From assembly GCF_000429325.1 (NCBI RefSeq), contig NZ_AUBQ01000019.1, forward strand, positions 1-64,000: a stretch of DNA of 64,000 nucleotides. The letters are read 5' to 3'. The notes under the pieces are model-generated. The model saw nothing but the letters and a program-made list of their open reading frames with translations. It did not search any database and was not told the DNA's origin. Shown in pieces: positions 1 through 16,013 of the stretch. This DNA is from Fundidesulfovibrio putealis DSM 16056 (GTDB lineage Bacteria > Desulfobacterota > Desulfovibrionia > Desulfovibrionales > Desulfovibrionaceae). How positions within the stretch are numbered: the stretch's first letter is position 1; each line of letters opens with the position of its first letter. Both the position numbers and the translations under genes were made by a program.

Positions 1-120
1 AGTTTCGGCTATCTCTCGGACCTGGGCCAGCTTTCTGCGGCCCATGAGGTGTGTCTTGGCTATCTGCCTGTCCGATTCGCCAAGGCGCATCCGGACAAGA
101 GCATGGCGATATTCAAACAT
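1..120 (-). CDS. istA: IS21-family transposase IstA, N-terminal 40 residues (continues beyond the left edge)
   Basis: Reading the minus strand from the ATG at 120 gives a frame open to the window edge, beginning MFEYRHALVRMRLGESDRQI and continuing with an HLMGRRK segment. This is the characteristic N-terminal helix-turn-helix start of IstA, the DDE transposase of IS21-type elements, which works with the ATPase IstB. IstB and the catalytic domain would lie to the left and are not visible. The five 24-bp repeats upstream of the start (222-327) fit the multiple terminal repeats of this family, so the IS end lies between about 220 and 350. Confidence 0.8.
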   Translation of the reverse strand, partial: MFEYRHALVRMRLGESDRQIAKTHLMGRRKLAQVREIAET

Positions 121-221
121 CTCGAACCTCCGATTGGACATCCCGCGTACCTCCCGCTCGTGAATCCGGCGGAAATACGTGGCATCTCGAAGGTCCGAAA
201 CCCGGTTCGGCCAGGCTAGAC

Positions 222-327
222 TGGCTCCATTACCTGATCATCAAATGGCCCCATTGCGTGAGCACTGGGTGGCTCCATTAGGTGAACATCCGGTGGCTCC
301 ATTGGGTGAACATCGAATGGACCCATA
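222..327. repeat. Five tandem 24-bp repeats at the end of the IS21-type element
   Basis: The core TGGCTCCATT or a close variant recurs at 222, 246, 270, 294 and 318, exactly 24 bp apart. Most units continue with GTGAACATC. The spacing is perfect although single bases vary (TGGCCCCATT in unit 2, TGGACCCATA in unit 5). Repeated blocks upstream of istA are the known transposase-binding terminal repeats of IS21 elements. I read no gene in 121-460; the exact outer end of the IS was not located. Confidence 0.75.
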
Positions 328-460
328 GGGGCGGTCGCCGACAGATAATCCGACATTTGTGCTTTCCTCAAAACCCGTCAACAAAAATATATCTAAAACA
401 TATAATTCTCTTGACGTCTGACACTCATTCAATTATTCTCCCGCCCCCTCAATTCTCCCC

Positions 461-520: not shown

Positions 521-775
521 ATGGACAAAGTGTCTCAGACGGAAAAGGAATGGGAAGAGCGTTCGGGGATGAAAGGGCTTGCTTATCGTCCAACAGCAAA
601 GGAGCTTTTTGACAGCGGTATGCATCCCTTGCAGCTCACAAACTACACAGACGGCGGGGTTCCCCTGGAGCCTGTGACCTGGGGGGATGTAGTGGATTTC
701 GAGATTGAGCTTTGTTGTGAAGAAGTAGTCAACAACCCCGAACTTCGCGCCCACATTTTCGGAGTAACAATCTAA
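521..775 (+). CDS. Hypothetical protein, 84 aa, first gene of the accessory region
   Basis: Not recognised. The start is fixed by a near-consensus AAAGGAGG ribosome binding site 5-8 nt before the ATG and a promoter-like TTGACA 60 bp upstream. The product is acidic and soluble, with no signal peptide, membrane segment or cysteine motif beyond a CC pair near the end. It contains several aromatic residues and a VTWGDVVDFEIELCCEEVV segment. It is followed 16 bp later by a second small unknown gene on the same strand, and the pair ends at a hairpin terminator, so they form a two-gene transcription unit between the IS21 end and the capsid cassette. Function unknown. Confidence 0.6.
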   Translation: MDKVSQTEKEWEERSGMKGLAYRPTAKELFDSGMHPLQLTNYTDGGVPLEPVTWGDVVDFEIELCCEEVVNNPELRAHIFGVTI

Positions 776-791
776 CAAGAAGGATATTTTT

Positions 792-1226
792 ATGGGACTG
801 GAATTTGCCATCGAAACATGTTCGAAGTTCGTAAACTTTAAACAAGACCCTAACAAGTCTGAATGTGAAAATGGGTGGGACTTGGTTCAAGAACTTAAAG
901 ATGAGGGCTATTATGAAGACAGCTTTCATGCTGAAGAAAGCAACAAAACGCGCACTCTTATCGAGCACCTGAAGAATGCTTTCAACACACACATTGGAAA
1001 AGATGCTTCCTGTTCATTTGACGTTATTAAGGAAATTTCTGAGTTAGTCGATGAAGAATTTTATCCATGCAATTCCTGTAAAGAGACAGTACGATCTTTA
1101 ATAAGGAAGATTGTAACGCTACCGACTCCACTCGATCCTAAGCTTGTAGAGTGGAAATCGAGAGTTAGTGCATTCAGTATAGACATAATTCGAAACGGCG
1201 TTATGAAATCATACTTCGATGAATAG
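792..1226 (+). CDS. Hypothetical protein, 144 aa, second gene of a two-gene operon
   Basis: Not recognised. The ATG follows an AGAAGGA ribosome binding site and lies 16 bp after the stop of the 84-aa gene. The protein is hydrophilic and probably mostly helical. A CNSC pair at about residues 95-98, with C79 nearby, could be a partial metal site, but only two closely spaced cysteines are present, so I do not claim a zinc finger. Base composition is clearly lower in G+C than the core genes, as in the other genes of the first 10 kb, consistent with acquired DNA. The hairpin at 1251-1276 closes the unit. Confidence 0.6.
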   Translation: MGLEFAIETCSKFVNFKQDPNKSECENGWDLVQELKDEGYYEDSFHAEESNKTRTLIEHLKNAFNTHIGKDASCSFDVIKEISELVDEEFYPCNSCKETVRSLIRKIVTLPTPLDPKLVEWKSRVSAFSIDIIRNGVMKSYFDE

Positions 1227-1482: not shown

Positions 1483-1524
1483 GCTTGACTACATACAAAC
1501 CTTCGTATAGAGTTTTAGTCAAGC
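1483..1524. promoter_or_regulatory. Inverted repeat upstream of the serine recombinase, candidate recombination or operator site
   Basis: GCTTGACTA at 1483-1491 is perfectly repeated in inverse as TAGTCAAGC at 1516-1524, centred about 35 bp before the recombinase start. Small serine recombinases bind dyad sites that often sit beside their own gene and also regulate it. The sequence shows only the dyad; its use as a crossover site is inference. Confidence 0.4.
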
Positions 1525-1538
1525 AAGGGGGAATGGTC

Positions 1539-2198
1539 ATGGAAGGCAAGTTTGTCGCATATTATCGAGTCTCGACAGCCCGCCAGGGGTCATCCGGCCT
1601 TGGCCTGGACGCTCAAAAAGAAGCCGTAACCTCCTACCTTAATGGCGGGAAGTGGACGCTCTTGAGGGAGTTCACAGAGGTTGAAACAGGCAAGGGCAGC
1701 AACGCCCTCTCCAAACGCCCCCAGCTTCGGGAGGCTATGGCCTTCTGTAAGAAGAACAAGGCCAAGCTCATTATTGCCAAGCTAGACCGTCTGGCAAGGA
1801 ATGTGAATTTTATCAGCGGCTTAATGGAAGCAAAAGTCCCATTTGTTGCCTGTGATCTCCCAGAGGCCAACAACATGACCATTCACATTATGGCCGCGTT
1901 TGCGGAGCATGAGGCACAGCGTATCTCTGCCAGAACCAAGGAAGCCCTTGCTCAAGTGAAGGCCAGAGGGAAGCAGTTAGGCAATCCCCGCATCAAGGAA
2001 ATGGCTGCTATGCAACGCTCGCAGGCTATGGAAGATGCTGAAAGGTTGCGCCCTGTACTGACGGGGTTCAAGGCACAGGGATTCACTCAGAGGCGCATGG
2101 TGGACGAACTGAACGCCCTTGGCATCCTGACTGTACGCGGGAAGCAGTGGGGCTTACTCCAAGTCCAGCGTGTACTATCCCGGCTTGATATAAAGTAG
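1539..2198 (+). CDS. Small serine recombinase (resolvase/invertase type)
   Basis: Catalyses site-specific DNA strand exchange through a serine nucleophile. The N-terminal resolvase domain (about residues 1-145) starts with the YYRVSTARQ motif containing the active-site serine and includes the LDRLARN and AFAEHEAQRISARTKEAL helices. A short C-terminal Hin-type helix-turn-helix follows (RRMVDELNALGI to the end). At 219 aa it is a small recombinase, not a large phage serine integrase. I prefer the ATG at 1539 because the AAGGGGG ribosome binding site (1525-1531) suits it; the frame is open further upstream. It is the only recombinase next to the capsid genes and may mobilise them. Confidence 0.85.
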   Translation: MEGKFVAYYRVSTARQGSSGLGLDAQKEAVTSYLNGGKWTLLREFTEVETGKGSNALSKRPQLREAMAFCKKNKAKLIIAKLDRLARNVNFISGLMEAKVPFVACDLPEANNMTIHIMAAFAEHEAQRISARTKEALAQVKARGKQLGNPRIKEMAAMQRSQAMEDAERLRPVLTGFKAQGFTQRRMVDELNALGILTVRGKQWGLLQVQRVLSRLDIK

Positions 2199-2224
2199 CC
2201 ATCCCCCGCCATACGATACGCACT

Positions 2225-2248
2225 AGCCCCCTACATGGGGGCTTTTTT
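2225..2248 (+). terminator. Intrinsic terminator after the serine recombinase
   Basis: AGCCCCC (2225-2231), loop TACAT, GGGGGCT (2237-2243), then a run of T to 2248. A classic rho-independent terminator 27 bp after the recombinase stop. It also argues against any gene starting at the ATG inside it. Confidence 0.85.
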
Positions 2249-2342
2249 ATTGCCTCAAGCTATACAAGGTAGAACTGCTAAAGATACCATTGCATATACT
2301 ATTACAAGGGTACAGTACAGGAACACAACAGGAACACCGGGA

Positions 2343-2672
2343 ATGATGAACATGCCAAGAGCAGCAAGCCGCAACAATCCGAAGCTTCACCCACTGGAGA
2401 AGCGGGCCAGGATATATCAGGCCAAGTATGAAATTGATCTTGAGTGCAAAACTCAGTTCTCTAAGGACGTTTGCCGCACACTGGCCGCATTGCGTGTGGA
2501 ACTCGACAGACTAGAGGCTGCTGGTGGTCTTGGCCCTGAGTATAACAGGACGCTCAAGCTCTTCAATAAGACCTTCAAACTCCTTCCGAAGCCCAAGGCC
2601 ATCCCCCAACCCCATCCTGTAGAGCCTACCCCTGCACCTGAATCTGACTTCTGGGGGGCTGCTGTTGGCTAG
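2343..2672 (+). CDS. Probable phage terminase small subunit
   Basis: Small, basic, helical 109-aa protein directly upstream of the large terminase with overlapping ends, the usual place of TerS, which recognises DNA and hands it to the packaging motor. It has the run of charged helices (EKRARIYQAKYEIDLE, LRVELDRLEAAG) and the Pro-rich C-terminal tail common in P27-type small terminases, but no decisive motif. The frame is open from 2235, but that ATG lies in the preceding terminator. The ATG at 2343 has an AGGA site 9 nt upstream and is preferred; 2352 is possible. Confidence 0.6.
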   Translation: MMNMPRAASRNNPKLHPLEKRARIYQAKYEIDLECKTQFSKDVCRTLAALRVELDRLEAAGGLGPEYNRTLKLFNKTFKLLPKPKAIPQPHPVEPTPAPESDFWGAAVG

Positions 2673-4320
2673 TAAGAAAGACCTGGCTCTAACCCGTTGG
2701 AACGCCCCCGGCTATGCGGGGTTCAAGAACTGGCTTCAGGACATCAAGCCCCACATAAAACACGATGACGGGCTTTTCCATCCCTTGCAACTGGAGCAGT
2801 GGCAAACTGACATCCTGCGGGATGCTTTGGCCGTGGATGAGCGCGGTAACTTCAGCCACAATATCATAATGACCTGTATGCCCCGTAGGCATTCCAAGTC
2901 TACCATGTGGCAGTTGGTGATTCTCTGGCTTGTAATGTCCAGGGAGAACCAGAACATTATAGCTCTACCTTGCACCGATGACCACGGATTACGGACGATG
3001 TTCAAGCCGATGGCTGGTATTATCTCTCACACGCCCAAGCTTTCCCCGCATTTCAAGGTGTTTCCGTCCCGTGGTACTATTCAGTTTGATGAGATGGGCG
3101 GAAGCATTACTATTGTCGCGCCCAACCCTGCAAGTGCCTTTGGAGATAAGGTCAGTGTCCTTTGGACAAGTGACATGCACATCTCCCCTGATTTGCGCCC
3201 ATTCAATGCTTTTCTAGCTGGTTTGATGGACTCGAAGAACTCTATTGTACTTATTGACACAAACGTTGACGTAATAGGTGGCCCTGTTCATTCCCTGCAA
3301 GTAGAAGCCGCCGAAAACCCCCGCATCTACTCAAAGCACCTAGAATATAAAGATTTTGAGGAGTATTGTGAAAAGGCTCCTCGCTGGATTGACCGCAACA
3401 CGGCGGCAACAAACAGGGCAGTAACGCTAGATGCAGAGTTTCAGCGGGATACGTTGGGGAAGCGTGGGTCAGGAGTGCATGACCTTTTCCCTTCAGACGT
3501 TTTAGAGAAGTGCAAAGATTCTTACACAATGCCCGTATCTGCTGAAGCCCTGAAGGAGCTTGTGGGCGGTAGACAGTACATCGTCACAGGTGGACTTGAC
3601 CGGGCTAAAAAGTTGTGGGGCGGCGATGGTACTATCTGGACTGTCACGCTTAAAGTTGCCTCAATCTCTGGGGAGCCTCATGTCTACGTTCTCAACCAGA
3701 AGGCAATAGCCCCCAACACTGCCGCTGAAATCAAGAAGGCCATACTTGAAGACCATGAGCGTTACACACTGACCAACGTAACGATGGAAGATTACGAGAC
3801 GCACGATATAACGCCGTGGCTCGATTCCCAGAAGATTCCCAACGAATCTGTATCAGCGACCAATACCCGTCAGAACTCCGCATTTCTTGAGATGCACCGG
3901 GTTGCAAAAGAAGGGCGGCTTCATATTCCAACCAACGCCCCCCTAATCACTGAGATGCGAACCTTCATCTACAGTGAGTCGAAGACTGGAAAGTTCCAGT
4001 TCGGCAGTTCTAACAAGCGGAACTTCCCAGACGATAGGGTTTACTCTGCCTGCTGGTCTATCTTCGCTGCTCGTAATGCAGTTCTCAGCATGTACCGCAT
4101 TGGCAACATCCTTTGCAGAAACAAAAGCCCGAAGAAGTCTCTGTGTTTCCTGCTTGGGGGTTCTTTGGAACTCGTATGTAAGACAGGATGCCACGCATAC
4201 AGCCAAGTTGAGAAAATGCACCAGCACTATGCAGCATTGACGCTTCAAGAAACAGATATCCCAAACTTCTTCAGTAGCTACGTCAAACTTGACGGCGCAC
4301 GAATCTCACAGGCGGTTTAG
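2665..4320 (+). CDS. Phage terminase large subunit (packaging ATPase-nuclease)
   Basis: Motor that translocates DNA into the procapsid and cuts it. The Walker A-like motif CMPRRHSKST lies at residues 71-80, a Walker B-like strand (VLWTSDMH) near 167, an RNaseH-fold nuclease start (VTGGLDRA) near 308, and the typical late motif FPDDRVYSACW near 454. The length of 551 aa is normal, with about 70 extra residues after the nuclease. The start is a TTG overlapping the TerS stop, with a G6 Shine-Dalgarno run 8 nt upstream, implying translational coupling. Followed without a gap by the next gene. Confidence 0.85.
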   Translation: MASKKDLALTRWNAPGYAGFKNWLQDIKPHIKHDDGLFHPLQLEQWQTDILRDALAVDERGNFSHNIIMTCMPRRHSKSTMWQLVILWLVMSRENQNIIALPCTDDHGLRTMFKPMAGIISHTPKLSPHFKVFPSRGTIQFDEMGGSITIVAPNPASAFGDKVSVLWTSDMHISPDLRPFNAFLAGLMDSKNSIVLIDTNVDVIGGPVHSLQVEAAENPRIYSKHLEYKDFEEYCEKAPRWIDRNTAATNRAVTLDAEFQRDTLGKRGSGVHDLFPSDVLEKCKDSYTMPVSAEALKELVGGRQYIVTGGLDRAKKLWGGDGTIWTVTLKVASISGEPHVYVLNQKAIAPNTAAEIKKAILEDHERYTLTNVTMEDYETHDITPWLDSQKIPNESVSATNTRQNSAFLEMHRVAKEGRLHIPTNAPLITEMRTFIYSESKTGKFQFGSSNKRNFPDDRVYSACWSIFAARNAVLSMYRIGNILCRNKSPKKSLCFLLGGSLELVCKTGCHAYSQVEKMHQHYAALTLQETDIPNFFSSYVKLDGARISQAV

Positions 4321-4719
4321 ATGACATCCGCTCAAGTTACAAAAGCACTTCAAGCCTATTTTGTTCTCAAGTTCAATTCTTGTGAAGTCGAATACGCCCA
4401 AGCAGTTCCCCATAGCATCAAGCGGGAAGTTCAGTGGGTGAGAGTCACAGTCAAAACGGGGCGGGGTTCTATCCTTGAGAAAGGAGAAGACGAACCACTT
4501 ACAAGAATCCCTGGAATCGCCATCTTTGACGTTCACACTCCATTGAAGTTCGGCGGGATGAAGGGGCTTGATGTTGCAGACGAAATACAAGCCCTGTTCA
4601 GAGTCAAAGAGATAGGCGGCATCTATACGGAGCAACCCTACACAGACGACTTGGGGGCTTCAGAGTTTGCTTTCATGCATAGCGTCTGTGTTCCATTCTA
4701 CTATTACCAAGGCATGTAA
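4321..4719 (+). CDS. Tail-terminator/tail-completion-like protein (DUF4128-like)
   Basis: 132 aa, starting on the base after the terminase stop. The arrangement (N-terminal helix with ALQAYF, a beta-rich middle with PGIAIFDVHTP, then GLDVADEIQALF and a final strand pair) resembles the tail-terminator/neck family DUF4128, which caps the tail tube and joins it to the head. The match is by pattern only. If right, the cassette carries the protein that meets a tail although no tail gene is present. Its position between large terminase and portal is unusual; such genes normally follow the connectors. Confidence 0.45.
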   Translation: MTSAQVTKALQAYFVLKFNSCEVEYAQAVPHSIKREVQWVRVTVKTGRGSILEKGEDEPLTRIPGIAIFDVHTPLKFGGMKGLDVADEIQALFRVKEIGGIYTEQPYTDDLGASEFAFMHSVCVPFYYYQGM

Positions 4720-5997
4720 ATGTTATATTATCCAGTAATCCAAGACATCAAATTCCCTGACAATCAGCGTAAGGAAGAGGCTCAAAAGCGTTTAGAGCTA
4801 TACCACGATATACACGAACTCCATACCCTGAACCAGTTGAAAGACTTTTCCGAGCCTGAGCTTCTGCAACTGGCCTCATTGAACATAGTCAAGAAGTGCA
4901 TCAACCAGCTTGCACAGACTTACCAAGAGCCGCCCCGTCGCGTGGTAGATGGCACTGATTCTGATAAGGAAGTCTTCGCTCAGATTGTGGAGTCTTCAAT
5001 GCTTGACATCAAGCTCAAGCAGGCTTCCCGCTATACCAAGCTGTTGAAGACCGTCCTGATTCGTCCTGTCTGGCGTTCCAACAAGATGGACTTGGACATT
5101 CTGACCCCTGACTTCGTTGATTGCGAGTGGGGGGATACCCCGTCCGAACTGCTCAAGGTCATTGTCACGAATTGGGGGAGTCTTGGCCGTCCTGATGAAG
5201 TGACTTTCTCTATCTGGACCGCTGAAACCTACGTCCTGAAGGACTACCGGGGGACTGTTCTCGAAAGCATCCCCAACCCATACAAGCAAGTCCCCTTCAT
5301 AGCCTGTTGGGATTACGCCCCCGCCTCTGATTTCTGGCTCCCTGGTGGTGATGACCTCATTAGCTGCCAGCTTGCCGTCAACTCCAAGCTGGTCGATCTG
5401 CTCCATGTGCTTCGGCATCAGGCTTTCGGGGTTGGGTGGATTCGTGGGGTTGCTGGTTCCGGTCATCTCCGGGTTGACCCTGGCTCCCTGGTTGAACTGC
5501 CGGAGGATGGGGCTTTGGGGTTCGAGTCTCAAGAAGCCAAGATCACAGAGACTATCCAGGCCATTGACCAGCTTCTCAAGTGGACAGCCATAACCAACGG
5601 GCTTCCCGCTGCTTCCCTCTCTACTGATCCTGTAGAAGAGTCTGGCATATCCAAACAGGTATCCAATTCTGAGCTTGAAGAACTTCGGCGGGATGATTGT
5701 GAACTCTGGCGTACATACGAGAGGCAACTATTCGACATCTTCCGTATCGTCAACAACGTCCACAACACAAAGAAGCTTTCCGACAAGGCTACTCTCAGCA
5801 TTGACTTCTTCGACAACAAGCCCGTCATTTCCCCTACTGAACAGGCTTCAGCGTGGGAAGCACTCATTGCTTTGGGGGTTATCAGTCAGGTTGATATTGT
5901 TATGGAGCGAAACCCAGACATAGCAACTAGAGAAGATGCCCTAGCGTATCTGGTCGAACTGCAACAGGAACGGAAGGCCATTACCAATGAAGTTTAA
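4720..5997 (+). CDS. Phage portal protein
   Basis: Forms the dodecameric ring at one capsid vertex through which DNA enters and leaves. The 425-aa product starts directly after the preceding stop and lies downstream of the terminase, as expected. It has the portal-like layout of an N-terminal helical part, a beta-rich wing (LDILTPDFVDCEWGD, VTNWGSLGRPDEVTFSIW), a conserved-looking IPNPYKQVPFI strand, long stem and crown helices (EELRRDDCELWRTYERQLFDIF) and a C-terminal helical tail. Assignment rests on size, order and overall pattern, with no single signature motif. It overlaps the next gene by 11 bp. Confidence 0.7.
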   Translation: MLYYPVIQDIKFPDNQRKEEAQKRLELYHDIHELHTLNQLKDFSEPELLQLASLNIVKKCINQLAQTYQEPPRRVVDGTDSDKEVFAQIVESSMLDIKLKQASRYTKLLKTVLIRPVWRSNKMDLDILTPDFVDCEWGDTPSELLKVIVTNWGSLGRPDEVTFSIWTAETYVLKDYRGTVLESIPNPYKQVPFIACWDYAPASDFWLPGGDDLISCQLAVNSKLVDLLHVLRHQAFGVGWIRGVAGSGHLRVDPGSLVELPEDGALGFESQEAKITETIQAIDQLLKWTAITNGLPAASLSTDPVEESGISKQVSNSELEELRRDDCELWRTYERQLFDIFRIVNNVHNTKKLSDKATLSIDFFDNKPVISPTEQASAWEALIALGVISQVDIVMERNPDIATREDALAYLVELQQERKAITNEV

Positions 5998-6406
5998 TGT
6001 CACATTCTCACATACGCCAAAGCAGTTTGAAGAAATGCTAATGGCAGAGTTTGAAAAGCCTTTTCGTGAAGCGGTTATCGAACTGTTCACACGAATCATT
6101 CAACGAACACCTGTTGATACTGGAAGGGCTAAAGCCAACTGGCAACCCGCCAATGGACGTTACATCGAAGACCGCTCCCTTAATCAATACGACAAAGAAG
6201 GCACGGCTACTATCAATAAAGTGCGGGATGTATTGAGCAAGTGGAAGCTATCAGATGGCTTTGTGTCACTGTGCAATAATCTGAACTACATCGTCCCACT
6301 TGAGTATGGCTTTTCTAACAAAGCCCCTACTGGAATGGTACGCATTAGCATTGAAGAGTGGGATGACATTGTAAATGAAGCTTGGGCGAAAGCTCAATCT
6401 AAATAA
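5987..6406 (+). CDS. HK97 gp10-like head-tail joining / tail-completion protein
   Basis: 139 aa. The segment TPVDTGRAKANWQ at about residues 43-55 is the hallmark of the HK97 gp10 / tail-completion family, proteins placed at the head-tail joint. The C-terminal half has the typical NNLNYIVPLEYG stretch. The ATG lies inside the last codons of the portal gene (11-bp overlap), implying coupled translation. In most siphophages this gene follows the connector genes; here it sits between portal and scaffold. Confidence 0.7.
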   Translation: MKFNVTFSHTPKQFEEMLMAEFEKPFREAVIELFTRIIQRTPVDTGRAKANWQPANGRYIEDRSLNQYDKEGTATINKVRDVLSKWKLSDGFVSLCNNLNYIVPLEYGFSNKAPTGMVRISIEEWDDIVNEAWAKAQSK

Positions 6407-6438
6407 TCGTCGCCAGACGTTAAATAGGAGCATCACAC

Positions 6439-6813
6439 ATGAGCGAAGAACAGATTCAGAATCAGGACAACAACGGCAACGCTACCGACAACAGCGAGAA
6501 GATGATTCCCAAGTCCAGATTCGATCAAGTGAACACAGCCAAGAAGCAGGCAGAAGAAACCCTTCAATCACTGGTTGAGGAACTGAAAGAGGACATCCCC
6601 GAAAAGTTTAGGGAACTTGTCCCGAATCTTCCCCCTGCCGATCAGGTGAAGTGGATTCGTACTGCCAGCAAGGCGGGCATGTTCACTGAAAAAGCGGAGC
6701 CGAATGGCCCCGACTCGAAAAGGCCGGGAGGCAAGCCAAGCGTGGACTTCTCCACCATGTCTCCAATGGAACAAATCACACTCGGCCTGAATCAGGCCGC
6801 CGAAAGGAAATAA
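6439..6813 (+). CDS. Probable capsid scaffolding protein
   Basis: 124-aa hydrophilic, Glu/Lys/Asn-rich protein lying 3 bp upstream of the major capsid gene. It has the MIPKSRFDQVNTAKKQAEE segment seen in many phage scaffold proteins, followed by a helical stretch and a basic C-terminal end. Scaffolds guide assembly of coat subunits and are then expelled. No head-maturation protease gene is present, which fits phages in which the scaffold leaves without cleavage. The start has a good upstream AATAGGAG ribosome binding site. Confidence 0.65.
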   Translation: MSEEQIQNQDNNGNATDNSEKMIPKSRFDQVNTAKKQAEETLQSLVEELKEDIPEKFRELVPNLPPADQVKWIRTASKAGMFTEKAEPNGPDSKRPGGKPSVDFSTMSPMEQITLGLNQAAERK

Positions 6814-6816
6814 CAA

Positions 6817-7740
6817 ATGGCTACCATGACTCTTGTTGAATCGCTGAAATACTACCAGAACCCTTTGCAGCGCGGGATTGTCCAGCTTTTCCCCGCCAAC
6901 TCTGCAATTCTTCAGTATCTTCCCTTCCGTAGTATCGACGGCAACAGCTACAGCTACAACCTGGAAGATACCCCCCCGAATGTGGGATTCCGTGCGATTA
7001 ACGCCGAATATACGGCAGACCAGGGAGTAATCAACCCTCAGTCTGAAGCCCTCAAGATTGGCGGTGGTCTTATCAAGATCGACCGCGCTCTTCTGGCTAT
7101 GCAGTCCAGCAACGGCACTGACATTCTGGCTGAACAGACCGCCATGAAGGTGCGGGCTATGTCTCGCCGCTTTGAGAAGGCGTTTATCAAGGGAGATGCT
7201 ACCGGAACCCCCGAAGAGTTCGACGGCCTCGAACTGCGCGTTGCTGGTGATCAGCTTATGACCGCTGGCACTGCGGCGGGTGGTGCTGCTCTGACTCTCG
7301 CCATGCTGGACGAATTGATTGACCGCCTCGATTTTGCCCCCACTGTCCTCCTGATGAACAAAACCATGCGCCGCAAGGTCAACTCCCTCATGCGTGCGGC
7401 TGGTCAGGCTACCGAAACCGTCTCTGGTGTCTTCGGCCAGCAAATCCCGGCTTACGCGGGCGTGCCGATTGGCATCGTGGGCAAGGACAACACCGGGGCG
7501 GAAATCCTCGCTTTCGATGAGAAGGACGGCCAGGCCGTACCCGCTGCCGCTTCTTGCACTAGCATCTATGCCCTTTCGATGGGTGGGGAAGGCGTGTGCG
7601 GTATCCAGAATGGCTCCATGAACGTGGATGACCAGGGCAATTCCGAGATTTGGCGTAAGATTCTGGTGGAGTGGTACTGCGGCCTGACTATCCAGCACGG
7701 CCACTCTGTTGCCCGTCTGAAGGCCATCAAGAACGCCTAA
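6817..7740 (+). CDS. Major capsid protein
   Basis: 307-aa coat subunit. Position after portal and scaffold, length and pattern agree with an HK97-fold coat. It has an N-terminal SLKYYQNPLQRGIVQLF helix, a long beta-rich arm (VGFRAINAEYTADQG), a spine-helix region (AMKVRAMSRRFEKAFIKGD), TVLLMNKTMRRKVNSL before the A-domain, and a final strand ending HSVARLKAIKNA. Codon use here is richer in G+C than in flanking cassette genes, as usual for a highly expressed coat gene. A strong hairpin follows immediately (7752-7796), separating it from the second half of the cassette. Confidence 0.75.
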   Translation: MATMTLVESLKYYQNPLQRGIVQLFPANSAILQYLPFRSIDGNSYSYNLEDTPPNVGFRAINAEYTADQGVINPQSEALKIGGGLIKIDRALLAMQSSNGTDILAEQTAMKVRAMSRRFEKAFIKGDATGTPEEFDGLELRVAGDQLMTAGTAAGGAALTLAMLDELIDRLDFAPTVLLMNKTMRRKVNSLMRAAGQATETVSGVFGQQIPAYAGVPIGIVGKDNTGAEILAFDEKDGQAVPAAASCTSIYALSMGGEGVCGIQNGSMNVDDQGNSEIWRKILVEWYCGLTIQHGHSVARLKAIKNA

Positions 7741-7751
7741 CTTCTGAACTC

Positions 7752-7796
7752 AAGTGCAAAAGTGGGGGGAGTCGGGATTCCTCCCACACTGCACTT
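7752..7796 (+). terminator. Nested hairpin after the major capsid gene
   Basis: AAGTGCA (7752-7758) pairs with TGCACTT (7790-7796), enclosing an inner stem GTGGG...GGAG / CTCCCAC. It begins 11 bp after the coat stop. No long U-tract follows, so it may act as a partial terminator or mRNA-stabilising structure. Confidence 0.6.
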
Positions 7797-7810
7797 CTTA
7801 GGATTTCAAT

Positions 7811-8191
7811 ATGTTTGAAGGGAAGAAGCGCACTCCACTAGAGGCCATGAAGGCATTTTGCCATTGGTGTATGTCTGGCACTGCACACGATTGCAACTCA
7901 GTCGAGTGCGCCTTGTTCCCTTACAAGGGGGGAGAAATCCCCCCCAAAGCTTCCCGCAATCTACTGAAGCAAATCAAAGCCCGTTGCCTGGACTGTATGC
8001 CCAATGGGGCTGAATCCTGTGACGCCTTCGAGCCTTACGAATTTCATAAGCCTTGCCCCCTCTGGCCGTACCGTTTGGGGAAGTCGCCCAATGTCTCTGA
8101 AGCAACCAGACAGAAGCGGTCAGAGCAGGCCAAAAAACAGGGCTTAGGCAAAGCACAGGACGGCAAAAACGGGGCAAATCTCGCATCCTAA
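7811..8191 (+). CDS. Duplicated Cys-cluster (zinc-binding-like) phage protein
   Basis: 126 aa with two versions of one module. The first is AMKAFCHWCMSG, then C...VECALFPYKGG; the second is QIKARCLDCMPNG, then C...KPCPLWPYRLGK. Each has a CxxC pair followed by two more cysteines and ends in LWPYR-type residues. The single module (RAKCLDC ... CPLWPYRLG) is known from small phage proteins of unknown role, probably metal-binding. The tail is basic (RQKRSEQAKKQG), suggesting nucleic acid contact. It sits alone between two hairpins in the middle of the head genes. Confidence 0.65.
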   Translation: MFEGKKRTPLEAMKAFCHWCMSGTAHDCNSVECALFPYKGGEIPPKASRNLLKQIKARCLDCMPNGAESCDAFEPYEFHKPCPLWPYRLGKSPNVSEATRQKRSEQAKKQGLGKAQDGKNGANLAS

Positions 8192-8320
8192 TTCAAAAGA
8201 CGTACTTCGCTGAGACATGGGGTGCTTGAGTCTTCCATGTGCCATTTTCGCTAGCCCCTGCGGTTCTCCCTCCTCCTCCCGCATAAAATGGTGGACTCCG
8301 GTACGGTGATGCCGAAAACG

Positions 8321-8348
8321 AAGGGTGTCCTAGTAGTGGACGCCCTTT
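8321..8348 (+). terminator. Hairpin terminator in the mid-cassette gap
   Basis: AAGGGTGTCC (8321-8330) pairs with GGACGCCCTT (8338-8347) around TAGTAGT, followed by T residues. It lies in the 190-bp gap between the Cys-cluster gene and the connector genes. Nothing else was recognised in 8192-8381. Confidence 0.7.
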
Positions 8349-8381
8349 TCACCAATAACTTTCAACCAGAATGGGGGATGT

Positions 8382-8741
8382 ATGATTTCAAAATCACAAG
8401 TTGACTCTGCCGTAACTGCACTGATGAATGATTGTCAATTTGCTCTTCAAGAAGCGACCTTCAAGCGTGTGGAGTCTTCCGACTATGACCCTGAAACAGG
8501 GGAAGTAACGGTTGTTGAGAAGTCATTTACTGCAAGCGTAATTTCCAGACGCTACAAGTCAAGTCAGGTAGACAACACAAATATTCTCTTTGACGATCTG
8601 AGACTGCTTACAAAATCTAGCTGGTGTGACTTCAAGCCGAAAAAAACTGATACTTTGGTACTTGACAATCGCGTTTACAGCATTATTTCTGTTAGAAGTG
8701 ATGCGTTCGAGTCTTCGTATGCCATTCAGGTACGCGGATGA
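8382..8741 (+). CDS. Probable head-closure (stopper) protein
   Basis: 119 aa, the first gene of the second capsid block, overlapping the minor head gene by 4 bp. Small beta-rich protein with an RVYSIISVRSDAFESSYAIQV C-terminal end of the style found in SPP1 gp16 / lambda FII-type head-tail joining proteins, which seal the portal after packaging. It has only general resemblance; position among head genes is the main argument. The ribosome binding site is GGGGGAT upstream of the ATG. Confidence 0.45.
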   Translation: MISKSQVDSAVTALMNDCQFALQEATFKRVESSDYDPETGEVTVVEKSFTASVISRRYKSSQVDNTNILFDDLRLLTKSSWCDFKPKKTDTLVLDNRVYSIISVRSDAFESSYAIQVRG

Positions 8742-9655
8742 ACACCGAAGACAAATACATCATCCTAGAACACGCGATTGAGGGATATTCTGGCACGGTG
8801 CTTGCTAGTATAAATGATAAAGTAGACAAACTGCTACCCGTCATCCTTGCTTATCTCAGCATCTACGCCGATAAGTACCAAAAAGCCCCGATTTTACAGC
8901 GTCAAGCGGTCATAGCCGATTACAAAAACGTAACCGGAAGTGCAATTTCTGTAACCTATGACCGCATACAACAGCAGCTTGTGCAGTCTGGTGCATCAAT
9001 AGTTGGAGTCTTACCCCCGATCTTTGAAGCTTTTGATCTTAAGTTCAAGAGTATCCCCGCCTTTCAGGCTGGTGGAATGGTAATTGACGGGAAGAATCTG
9101 ACCGAATGGGTTGGGGGGTTGGGGGATTCTCTGAAGTCCCGCCTCGCTGAGAAGATTAAAGTTGATTCCAAGTCAACTTTAAATGCTGCCCGTGAGTCCC
9201 TGAACTTGGGGAAGCCTGGGCTTGATGCCATAACGGGAACTTCTATCAGGTATGACAGACAGGCTTTCGAGCTTGCACTGATCGAAGCCAACCCCCAGAC
9301 AATGCCCCAGACTCTTACGTTCATTGCCATACTGGATAGCCGGACTAGCCGAATCTGTAGGAGCCTTCACGGGAAGACCTACCCGGCGAACTCCCCCAAT
9401 CTTCCTGTCCCGCCCTTGCATCCACGTTGCCGTTCTCGGTTGGTCCCATATGTCTCGCCAACCCAAGTTCAGACTTATCGGGAGTGGCTTGAACGGATGC
9501 AGGCGGCGGGGCGGGTTGACCTTCTCAAAGCAATACTAGGCCCCCGCTATGATCTATTCGCTTCAGGTAAGTACACGCCTGACGGGATGGAGATGGCAAC
9601 TAAACTCAATACGGCTGAAGATGTAGCCGACTTCGTAAAGGAATATGCAAAATGA
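8738..9655 (+). CDS. Minor head protein, SPP1 gp7-like (phage head morphogenesis domain)
   Basis: 305 aa. The domain near residues 195-235 shows the family signature DSRTSRICRSLHGKTYP followed by PPLHPRCRSRLVP, typical of the SPP1 gp7 / Mu gpF head-morphogenesis family. These proteins bind the portal inside the procapsid and affect DNA ejection. The N-terminal part is helical and variable, as usual. It is translationally coupled to its neighbours at both ends (ATGA-type overlaps at 8738 and 9652). In typical genomes this gene follows the portal; here it is displaced behind the coat gene. Confidence 0.8.
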   Translation: MNTEDKYIILEHAIEGYSGTVLASINDKVDKLLPVILAYLSIYADKYQKAPILQRQAVIADYKNVTGSAISVTYDRIQQQLVQSGASIVGVLPPIFEAFDLKFKSIPAFQAGGMVIDGKNLTEWVGGLGDSLKSRLAEKIKVDSKSTLNAARESLNLGKPGLDAITGTSIRYDRQAFELALIEANPQTMPQTLTFIAILDSRTSRICRSLHGKTYPANSPNLPVPPLHPRCRSRLVPYVSPTQVQTYREWLERMQAAGRVDLLKAILGPRYDLFASGKYTPDGMEMATKLNTAEDVADFVKEYAK

Positions 9656-10050
9656 TTGTTTTCCCTACTGTAGGATTTAATTCATATATTGATGTTGACT
9701 ATGCCGATGAGTATTTCACCACTAGGATTCGTGGGGATGCTTGGTTTGCCTTGGATGATGACCAGAAAGAGATTGCATTGATATCAGCATATAGAAAGCT
9801 CTGCCTGTTGTCTCTCTCTGTAGAGCTAAATTCGTATGACTTTCTAGCCAGCATATCACAAGCACAATGTGAGCAGGCGTTGTATGAAGTAAAGAATGAC
9901 CTTGACCAATCTGCAACGAATATCTCTAAAGTCGATCTTGACGGGGTTTCTATTGATTGGAAATCAAGTCAAGTGAAGCAATATAGTGAAATGGCAATGG
10001 CGTTGTTGTCTGGGTATTTAACCATTAGGACCGTGAAAAGGAGTCGATGA
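9652..10050 (+). CDS. Head-tail adaptor (gp15/DnaT-like connector) protein
   Basis: 132 aa, overlapping the minor head stop by 4 bp. It begins with the pattern PTVGFNSYIDVDYADEYFTTR...DAW, common in phage proteins annotated DnaT-like or head-tail adaptor. An all-helical core follows. The related SPP1 gp15 forms the first ring below the portal. Assignment is by N-terminal pattern and neighbourhood. Together with the gp10-like, stopper-like and terminator-like genes it would complete a neck. Confidence 0.6.
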   Translation: MIVFPTVGFNSYIDVDYADEYFTTRIRGDAWFALDDDQKEIALISAYRKLCLLSLSVELNSYDFLASISQAQCEQALYEVKNDLDQSATNISKVDLDGVSIDWKSSQVKQYSEMAMALLSGYLTIRTVKRSR

Positions 10051-10053
10051 TTT

Positions 10054-10809
10054 ATGAGCATGTGTAATCAATGCGACCTGAAGAAGACTAAGGATTGTGG
10101 AAGAACGCAACTGCCTAGCGGCGAGTATGCCGTCTGTTTTCCTATGAAGCAGATTCTTAGCGGTGAAACAAGTGGACAGGATATTAGGAACAGCAAGGGA
10201 GAGACTGTCTATTGTAAGAACAGAAGCGATAAAGAAATCAGTTTTTCTAGCTTTGGTGATGAAACATATATGAAAGACATGGTTGAACAAATGGATGAGG
10301 AAGAGTTCAAAGACAGGTGGGAAGAGCTTAGGGCAGAAGCCCCAAAGTATCTTGCTATCTATGTGGCAAGAAACGTGCTTGGGCGTACATATGAGCAGAT
10401 TCAAGAAGAGTTCGGCTTCAATACCATCAATTCAGTGGGGCAGGCAATTAGAGATTCTGAAGCCGCTTTCAATAACATTGCCGATTTGCTTAACACTTGG
10501 CATAGAATGAAGCCGCTTTATGATTTTGTCTCTGACAAACGCCTGCCAGCGGGACTTGCTGAATGGCTTCTGGTTCAACTTAGTGGCCGTCCAGCTAACC
10601 AGATTGCGAAGCTGATTAACCCGGACAACCCCGAAACGGTCCACAGGCGGATCAAAACGCAACAGGGTTACTTTTTAAACGGCGGGGTGACTATCAATAC
10701 TCAGGACGGTAAGGTCACTCTGACCTACGGCAACGGAAAGACTAAGGCGGTGACGGTCCCTGACGTTCTCGCCAACCCTGAATATCAGACACAAATCAGC
10801 ATGAACTAA
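10054..10809 (+). CDS. Hypothetical protein with N-terminal Cys cluster, last gene of the capsid cassette
   Basis: 251 aa, not recognised. The N-terminus carries CNQCDLKKTKDC and another Cys 16 residues later, plus a YC pair, so a metal-binding knuckle is possible. The middle is charged, with a YEQIQEEFGFNTINSVGQAI segment that reads like a helix-turn-helix. The C-terminus is beta-rich (GGVTINTQDGKVTLTYGNGK). Co-directional with the capsid genes and closed by a strong terminator. A regulator or DNA-binding morphogenesis factor is possible; I cannot choose between these. Confidence 0.65.
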   Translation: MSMCNQCDLKKTKDCGRTQLPSGEYAVCFPMKQILSGETSGQDIRNSKGETVYCKNRSDKEISFSSFGDETYMKDMVEQMDEEEFKDRWEELRAEAPKYLAIYVARNVLGRTYEQIQEEFGFNTINSVGQAIRDSEAAFNNIADLLNTWHRMKPLYDFVSDKRLPAGLAEWLLVQLSGRPANQIAKLINPDNPETVHRRIKTQQGYFLNGGVTINTQDGKVTLTYGNGKTKAVTVPDVLANPEYQTQISMN

Positions 10810-10818
10810 TGCGCGAGT

Positions 10819-10840
10819 GGGGGGCTTCGGCCCCCCTTTT
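10819..10840 (+). terminator. Intrinsic terminator closing the capsid cassette
   Basis: GGGGGGC (10819-10825), UUCG tetraloop, GCCCCCC (10830-10836), then TTTT. A textbook rho-independent terminator 10 bp after the last capsid-cassette stop. Confidence 0.9.
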
Positions 10841-10844
10841 GGCC

Positions 10845-10890
10845 TGTGCCACATGAGCCTGTGCCACAATCCCCGAAAATCTGTGCCACA
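10845..10890. repeat. Three direct copies of TGTGCCACA between the cassette and tRNA-Ala
   Basis: TGTGCCACA occurs at 10845-10853, 10860-10868 and 10882-10890; the first two share CC in front. The block lies between the cassette terminator and the tRNA terminator. Short direct repeats beside a tRNA 3' end are typical of integrase arm-type or excisionase sites, but no integrase gene is next to it. Confidence 0.6.
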
Positions 10891-10929: not shown

Positions 10930-10937
10930 GTAATCTT

Positions 10938-11013
10938 TGGTGGAGGCGATGAGGATCGAACTCACGACCTCAGCGTTGCGAACGCTGCGCTCTCCCAGCT
11001 GAGCTACGCCCCC
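10938..11013 (-). tRNA. tRNA-Ala(CGC)
   Basis: Complete cloverleaf of 76 nt including encoded CCA. Acceptor GGGGGCG pairs with CGCCTCC, D-arm GCTC/GAGC, anticodon stem CAGCG/CGCTG with loop TTCGCAA giving anticodon CGC, T-arm GTGAG/CTCAT with TTCGATC. It reads codon GCG. Its 3' end faces the capsid cassette, so the gene may be the integration target of that element. Confidence 0.95.
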
Positions 11014-15042: not shown

Positions 15043-16013
15043 CGACCACACCCACCGCCCTCCCGGACGACACCATCCGTCCCAAGCGCCTGGCTGATTT
15101 CATCGGCCAGCAGGACCTGCGCGCCAACCTCCAGGTGTATCTTTCCAGCGCCACCGAGCGCGGCAAGGCCCTGGACCACACACTCTTTTACGGGCCTCCG
15201 GGCCTGGGCAAGACCACCCTGGCCCAGATCATGTCCTCGGAGCTCGGGGTGAATCTCATCACCACCTCCGGGCCGGTGCTGGAGCGCGGCGGCGATCTGG
15301 CCGCTATCCTCACCAACCTGGGCCGCCACGACATCCTGTTCATCGACGAGATCCACCGCATGCCCCCAGCCGTTGAGGAGATCCTCTATCCGGCCATGGA
15401 GGACTTCAAGCTGGACCTCATCATCGGCCAGGGGCCGGGCGCGCGCACCGTGAAGATCGACCTGGAACCCTTCACCCTGGTTGGGGCCACCACCCGCATC
15501 GGGCTTCTGACCTCGCCGCTGCGTGACCGCTTCGGGGTGATCTTCCGCCTGGATTTCTACTCCCCGCAGGAGCTCTCGGCCATCGTCACCCGCGCCGCGA
15601 AAATCCTCGGAGTGTCGCTCACGCCAGAGGCGGCCCTGGAGATCGGCAAGCGCTCGCGCGGCACGCCGCGCATATCAGGTCGGCTCCTTCGGCGCGTGCG
15701 TGATTTCGCCGTGGTGCAGGGTAGCCCCGTCATCGACCAGGAGCTGGCCCGCGTGGCCCTTGGCCGCATGGACGTGGACCCGCACGGCCTGGACCAGATG
15801 GACCGCAAGATTCTCTCCTGCCTGGTGGAGCAGTTCGGGGGCGGGCCGGTGGGGGTGAAGACCCTGGCCGTGGCCTGCTCCGAAGAGGTGCGCACCCTGG
15901 AGGACATCTACGAGCCGTATCTCATCCAGTGCGGCCTGATACAGCGCACCCCGCGTGGGCGCGTGGCCACGGCCAAGGCCTACCAGCATCTGAAAATTCA
16001 TCCGTTAGGTTAG
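15039..16013 (+). CDS. ruvB: Holliday junction helicase RuvB
   Basis: 324-aa AAA+ motor driving branch migration with RuvA. It has [15 protein letters not shown] near the N-terminus, Walker [10 protein letters not shown], Walker [10 protein letters not shown], sensor 1 [18 protein letters not shown], and the C-terminal winged helix ([31 protein letters not shown]). The ATG at 15039 overlaps the ruvA stop (ATGA), fixing the start; an in-frame ATG at 15009 is inside ruvA and unlikely. Confidence 0.95.

Follow-up and report, generated by a model that had tools for sequence, protein, structure and literature searches.

Capsid-forming satellites have been defined from few lineages, and in one of these, cf-PICI, the early region carries an AlpA-type regulator and a primase. 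We compared a locus of Fundidesulfovibrio putealis with cf-PICI, as defined in PMC10690885 and PMC11389934, and with other systems. The window (i.e. the whole stretch of 64,000 nucleotides that was analysed) is the start of contig C12, and it carries the larger part of an element of about 17 kb. We concluded that this element is very probably a capsid-forming phage satellite of 17.0 kb, which its own tyrosine integrase placed at the 3' end of tRNA-Ala(CGC) and which an IS21-like element split afterwards. It works like a cf-PICI but forms a lineage apart, in which the head genes are private and the neck genes interchangeable.

Like cf-PICI, the window element is an integrated satellite with its own MCP, portal, connectors and terminase (TerS by position) and with no tail genes, and its relatives carry primases. 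It differs in that no HNH endonuclease, which in cf-PICI belongs to the packaging module, was found in it (one HNH match was seen when 78 early ORFs from the screened elements were searched), no separate head protease was found and the scaffold is separate, an extra serine recombinase is present, and some relatives encode a tape measure. Excisionase/regulator families and HTH_17 were each matched by three early ORFs of the element set, and primases were found in several; none of the window element's own proteins matched an AlpA-type regulator or primase family. When a profile of 20 MCPs was compared with the PDB, the cf-PICI EcCI2 capsid (9gyi) was not matched at E 0.1, and it shares only the distant HK97 fold with the window MCP; cf-PICI capsids form three clades (PMC11389934), and this one solved capsid is the only one compared here. 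As the HNH endonuclease and the head protease are missing, and the MCP shows no relation in sequence to the single solved cf-PICI capsid compared, we do not claim cf-PICI membership.

The Streptomyces satellites MulchRoom and MiniFlayer (PMC10690885) resemble the element in having terminase, portal, MCP, scaffold, adaptor and their own capsids, and (for MulchRoom) no tail. They differ in having no primases, in infecting Actinomycetota and in using virulent helpers, and no Streptomyces phage record among 50,697 phages matched the window TerL. The phiCbK-like and other siphophages have a homologous MCP (at most 41% identity among the matches listed), but they are full phages (40-357 kb among the records listed), their TerL and portal show no detectable similarity, and their MCPs lie outside the satellite side of the tree.

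Extent of the element and its insertion site

The element had originally been predicted to start at the serine recombinase. This proved wrong: the left end lies on another contig, C4, 6.4 kb past the IS21 copy, and the right end is the 3' end of the tRNA-Ala gene. When the C4 and window halves are joined (attL on C4 to attR in the window), the satellite is 17,026 bp long without the IS. The G+C of the two halves is 0.486 and 0.492, while that of the flanks is 0.60-0.61 (i.e. 49% for the element and 60% for the chromosome).

The IS has the termini TGTC...GACA, and a 5-bp target duplication, GATAA, is common to the window and C4 flanks. Joining the flanks restored a 25-bp palindrome with 12-bp arms (CAAATGTCGGAT-A-ATCCGACATTTG), which probably serves as an operator or another type of control site; the pattern has no further copy elsewhere in the genome. 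The IS21 copy lies in an intergenic stretch and caused no loss of sequence: both the target duplication and the palindrome are intact. Its insertion may have inactivated this copy of the satellite. The IS21-like element is present in several copies (the window and the four contigs given in Table 1), which break the assembly.

From attL, the gene order on C4 is the tyrosine integrase (Pfam Phage_integrase 1.5e-21), two small ORFs, an 1109-aa protein and then the opposite IS21 end. Tail genes just left of the IS, which the original prediction had named as evidence against a satellite, are thus not found there. Its statement that replication genes were absent has to be withdrawn, that impression having come from the contig break inside IS21: by position and by its Walker-like and primase-like motifs (FDVED, GSGGRF, GAGKS), the 1109-aa protein is a putative primase/helicase-like protein. 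Neither Pfam nor PHROGs matched it, the PDB gave nothing meaningful, and IMG/VR contained no relative. A 23-bp exact direct repeat (L124:15729-15751 and 15807-15829, 78 bp apart) follows the primase-like gene and is a candidate origin or control region.

We also examined the same site in related genomes. Five congeners retain the tRNA-Ala(CGC) and the gene next to it, along with the att core (49-50 of 50 bases), and the satellite-type TerL was absent at this site in all five (i.e. the site is empty). The empty site was demonstrated via the right flank, since the congeners do not retain the gene to the left of attL. The sole satellite-bearing congener (G136) has its element at a tRNA-Leu. A second att candidate in the host genome (G000:C1:216086-216148; 63 bp, 97%) was set aside, as no satellite was present among the adjoining ORFs read; this orphan copy of the tRNA-Ala 3' end is perhaps the scar of a lost element.

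Table 1. Features of the satellite and its flanks in the window
Feature	Position	Strand	Basis or remark
IS21-like insertion sequence, right end	1..343	-	contig begins within it; splits the satellite; identical to ends of contigs C6, C15, C9, C8
Right half of 25-bp palindrome	344..360		cut by the IS; seen on joining the flanks
84-aa protein	521..775	+	ORF; no PHROGs match
144-aa protein	792..1226	+	ORF; weak phrog_33787 match
Serine recombinase, DNA-invertase type, 237 aa	1485..2198	+	Pfam Resolvase 6e-25, phrog_125 8e-30
Candidate TerS, 145 aa	2235..2672	+	position only, immediately upstream of TerL; no family match
Large terminase TerL, 551 aa	2665..4320	+	phrog_9 2e-12
Tail terminator / tail completion, connector to tail	4321..4719	+	phrog_179 1e-8; Xp15 tail terminator, 25% identity
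Portal, 425 aa	4720..5997	+	phrog_104 1e-6
Neck1 / tail completion, HK97 gp10-like	5987..6406	+	phrog_169 9e-38
Scaffold, 124 aa	6439..6813	+	weak match below cut-off (Pfam Phage_scaffold 6e-4); conserved immediately upstream of MCP in related loci
Major capsid protein (MCP), HK97 fold, 307 aa	6817..7740	+	phrog_212 3e-69; Foldseek and PDB matches
Cys-rich 126-aa protein after MCP	7811..8191	+	no family match
Head closure Hc1 (stopper)	8382..8741	+	phrog_161 9e-17
MuF-like minor head protein	8738..9655	+	phrog_241 6e-22
Head-tail adaptor Ad1	9652..10050	+	phrog_477 1e-12
251-aa last gene, Cys cluster and HTH-like stretch	10054..10809	+	homologous to c12 of relatives (hhalign probability 94)
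attR, 50-bp core	10937..10986		identical to attL, G000:C4:321602-321651 (L124:9603-9652)
tRNA-Ala(CGC), integration target, intact	10938..11013	-	ARAGORN; five congeners share the tRNA and its att core

Head and neck genes of the satellite and its relatives

All ORFs of the head cassette were present, intact and co-directional, as had been predicted. The gene identities held in part: PHROGs confirmed TerL, tail terminator, portal, Neck1, MCP, Hc1, the MuF-like protein and Ad1, while the scaffold was matched weakly and TerS is assigned by its position. The lack of tail, lysis and holin genes was borne out in family searches of the whole 17 kb, in which no tail tube, tape measure, baseplate, fibre, holin or lysis family was recognised and some ORFs had no family match.

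The TerL motifs PRRHSKS and DDxVYS-type are conserved in an alignment of 17 sequences; the Pfam TerL_ATPase family was not found in the window TerL, and the TerS candidates of the relatives (c10, c14, c17) did not match the 145-aa ORF. The AF2 model of the portal (pLDDT 80) matched solved portals (E 6e-12). The MCP model had low confidence (pLDDT 60), yet Foldseek recognised the HK97 fold in it, and the profile of 20 MCPs matched 3j4u and 3j40 in the PDB, the capsids of phages BPP-1 and epsilon15. The top Foldseek matches of this low-confidence model were family 2 encapsulins (SrpI, E 7e-11), which ranked above phage capsids. The MuF-like protein also matches phrog_595 (head maturation protease), over a short stretch only. 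The serine recombinase, which has relatives in eight other loci examined, is accessory and not the integrase of the element. The product of the last gene could possibly act in packaging recognition or as a late regulator. The Cys-rich ORF was evaluated as a counterpart of c6, the gene after MCP in the relatives, and this was rejected, as the two are not related.

Repeats of tRNA sequence, 48-108 bp long, delimit six relatives, which measure 14.6-15.9 kb: G030 (tRNA-Leu, 108 bp), G239a (tRNA-Asn, 49 bp), G136 (tRNA-Leu, 57 bp), G035 (tRNA-Lys, 50 bp), G235 (tRNA-Ala CGC, 48 bp) and L029 (tRNA-Ala GGC, 48 bp). A metagenome contig of 15.7 kb (L170) has a 123-bp terminal repeat. The shared plan is tyrosine integrase, regulators, primase/helicase, TerS, TerL, portal, scaffold, MCP and then connectors. 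The window element fits these complete, tRNA-bounded relatives, which supports the original reading of the cassette as a capsid-forming satellite.

The TerL (alignment A1) matched 77 IMG/VR contigs, 76 of them below 20 kb and one of 20 kb or more, and the closest MCPs in IMG/VR are on contigs of at most 20 kb. TerL matches were also seen in genomes of Desulfovibrio, Desulfarculus, Desulfosarcina, Magnetospirillum, Azospirillum and others. We observed the TerL in 7 of 288 genomes of the bacterial family, always on satellite-size elements or on fragments cut by a contig end; a homologous full prophage, the other finding that had been named as evidence against a satellite, was thus not encountered. 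One genome (G239) holds two different satellites of the family, on contigs C46 and C57. The window MCP is 88% identical to that at L012:9441-10361, while TerL and portal are 45% and 48% identical to those of the same locus, which indicates recombination inside the head module.

In the MCP tree, a branch of moderate support (82/91) separates 47 satellite MCPs from 17 others, which come from full phages, a single prophage and IMG/VR contigs. From the tree, the satellite MCPs may have a single origin. The dN/dS of the MCP is 0.076-0.084 against its three closest relatives, and, as judged from the sequences, the MCP is under purifying selection.

The head and neck genes differed in how far they are shared with phages. 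Among the 50,697 phage records, TerL had one weak partial match and the portal none, the tail terminator had one match and Hc1 eight, the MCP had 270 (at most 41% identity among the matches listed), and Neck1 had relatives in 1,887. Of the 88 locus records that have both TerL and MCP, in which some contigs are counted twice, nearly all also have portal and scaffold, while the window-type neck1 was found in four and hc1 in 22. Neck1 of G235 comes from another family (phrog_5, in place of phrog_169 in the window). The private TerL and portal, the shared Neck1, the presence counts and the phrog_5 protein of G235 together suggest that the head is conserved and that the parts at the tail interface are exchangeable. 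Prophages of this bacterial family have an ORF of tail-terminator size and large ORFs of tape-measure size after Ad1, Hc1 and Neck1; by ORF size and order, these look like a tail module.

Tape measures and alternative explanations

The statement that tail genes are absent fails for the family as a whole, since relatives at other sites carry a tape measure. The att-bounded element of G235 encodes one of 696 aa with the classical C-terminal motif (L102:9346-11433), and that of G030 a homologue of 683 aa (L092/L093). Both are lambda gpH-like and lie upstream of TerS/TerL, and no recognised tail tube was found in either element. When the non-core ORFs of the related elements were evaluated (137 listed, 127 scanned; first 25 families listed, so that weaker single matches may lie outside the list), tape-measure families appeared among the matches listed in one late ORF, from L183, a distant member whose contig could be part of a larger phage. 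The tape measures of G235 and G030 came to light in a further scan of selected proteins. These tape measures, along with several ORFs of no known family, would fit an autonomous mini-phage that builds its short tail out of unrecognised proteins and can do without a helper. However, no tube, baseplate or lysis family was found in the elements screened, and the connectors are of the type made to receive a long tail, and we consider a mini-phage unlikely.

A decayed prophage, a full phage from which deletion and IS21 insertion had stripped the tail, lysis and regulatory genes, would account for the IS21 copy that does interrupt the element. This copy is intergenic and took nothing away, however, and the att sites and the integrase are intact. 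The MCP has a dN/dS of 0.08, the same head-only plan recurs at similar size at unrelated tRNA sites in other genomes, and no full phage with the satellite TerL or portal was found (50,697 phages, and 288 genomes for TerL). Decay is thus very improbable. Gene transfer agents are domesticated host loci, fixed in place, with head and tail genes and with particles that carry random host DNA. The locus could in principle be such a particle, packaging host DNA like the Desulfovibrio GTA Dd1, and it does come from the Desulfovibrionaceae, the family from which a GTA was reported (PMC11841831). Against this, the cassette belongs to a mobile element that targets a tRNA and brings its own integrase, the same site lacks the element in five congeners, the distribution is scattered (7 of 288 genomes) and tail genes are absent; we give this explanation hardly any credence.

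Proposed life cycle and helper phages

With its own head and apparently no tail, the capsid-forming satellite probably borrows the tails of a helper virus. A tailed helper phage would induce it, the integrase (by position and motifs) would excise it, and the 1109-aa primase/helicase-like protein, on the same grounds, would start its replication. The scaffold, MCP and portal, whose genes are seen in the element, would then build the head, and its own TerS/TerL would fill it. Its Ad1, Hc1, Neck1 and tail-terminator proteins would finish the neck, on which a helper-made tail could dock, and the helper would carry out lysis. We infer the dependence on a helper tail: as the element has no recognisable gene for a tail tube, tape measure, baseplate, fibre or lysis, tail and lysis must come from the helper.

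More tentatively, and in a form that could well be wrong, we propose an old, separate and undescribed satellite family in Desulfobacterota and Alphaproteobacteria, with private head and packaging genes. Its neck genes would be swapped (phrog_169 here, phrog_5 in G235) to fit the tails of helpers, and two relatives would supply the tape measure and so set the length of a tail made of helper parts. We found no literature joining phage satellite, Desulfovibrio and capsid; the lists of the cf-PICI founding paper and of SatelliteFinder were outside this comparison. The strategy of an own head and a borrowed tail is probably also used by an old and widespread lineage whose packaging genes are unrelated; it occurs in sulfate reducers, a group in which little is understood about gene transfer. 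With the head private and the neck interchangeable, it becomes testable which proteins decide the choice of helper, and the relatives with tape measures could reveal whether the satellite dictates the length of the borrowed tail.

In the host's own genome, the search for a helper candidate gave one tape-measure match (PF10145), in a prophage that looks Mu-like and has no matching neck genes. This prophage, the one tailed prophage of the genome that was examined, lies at G000:C2:293000-330000 (L244, L245) and is probably contractile-tailed.
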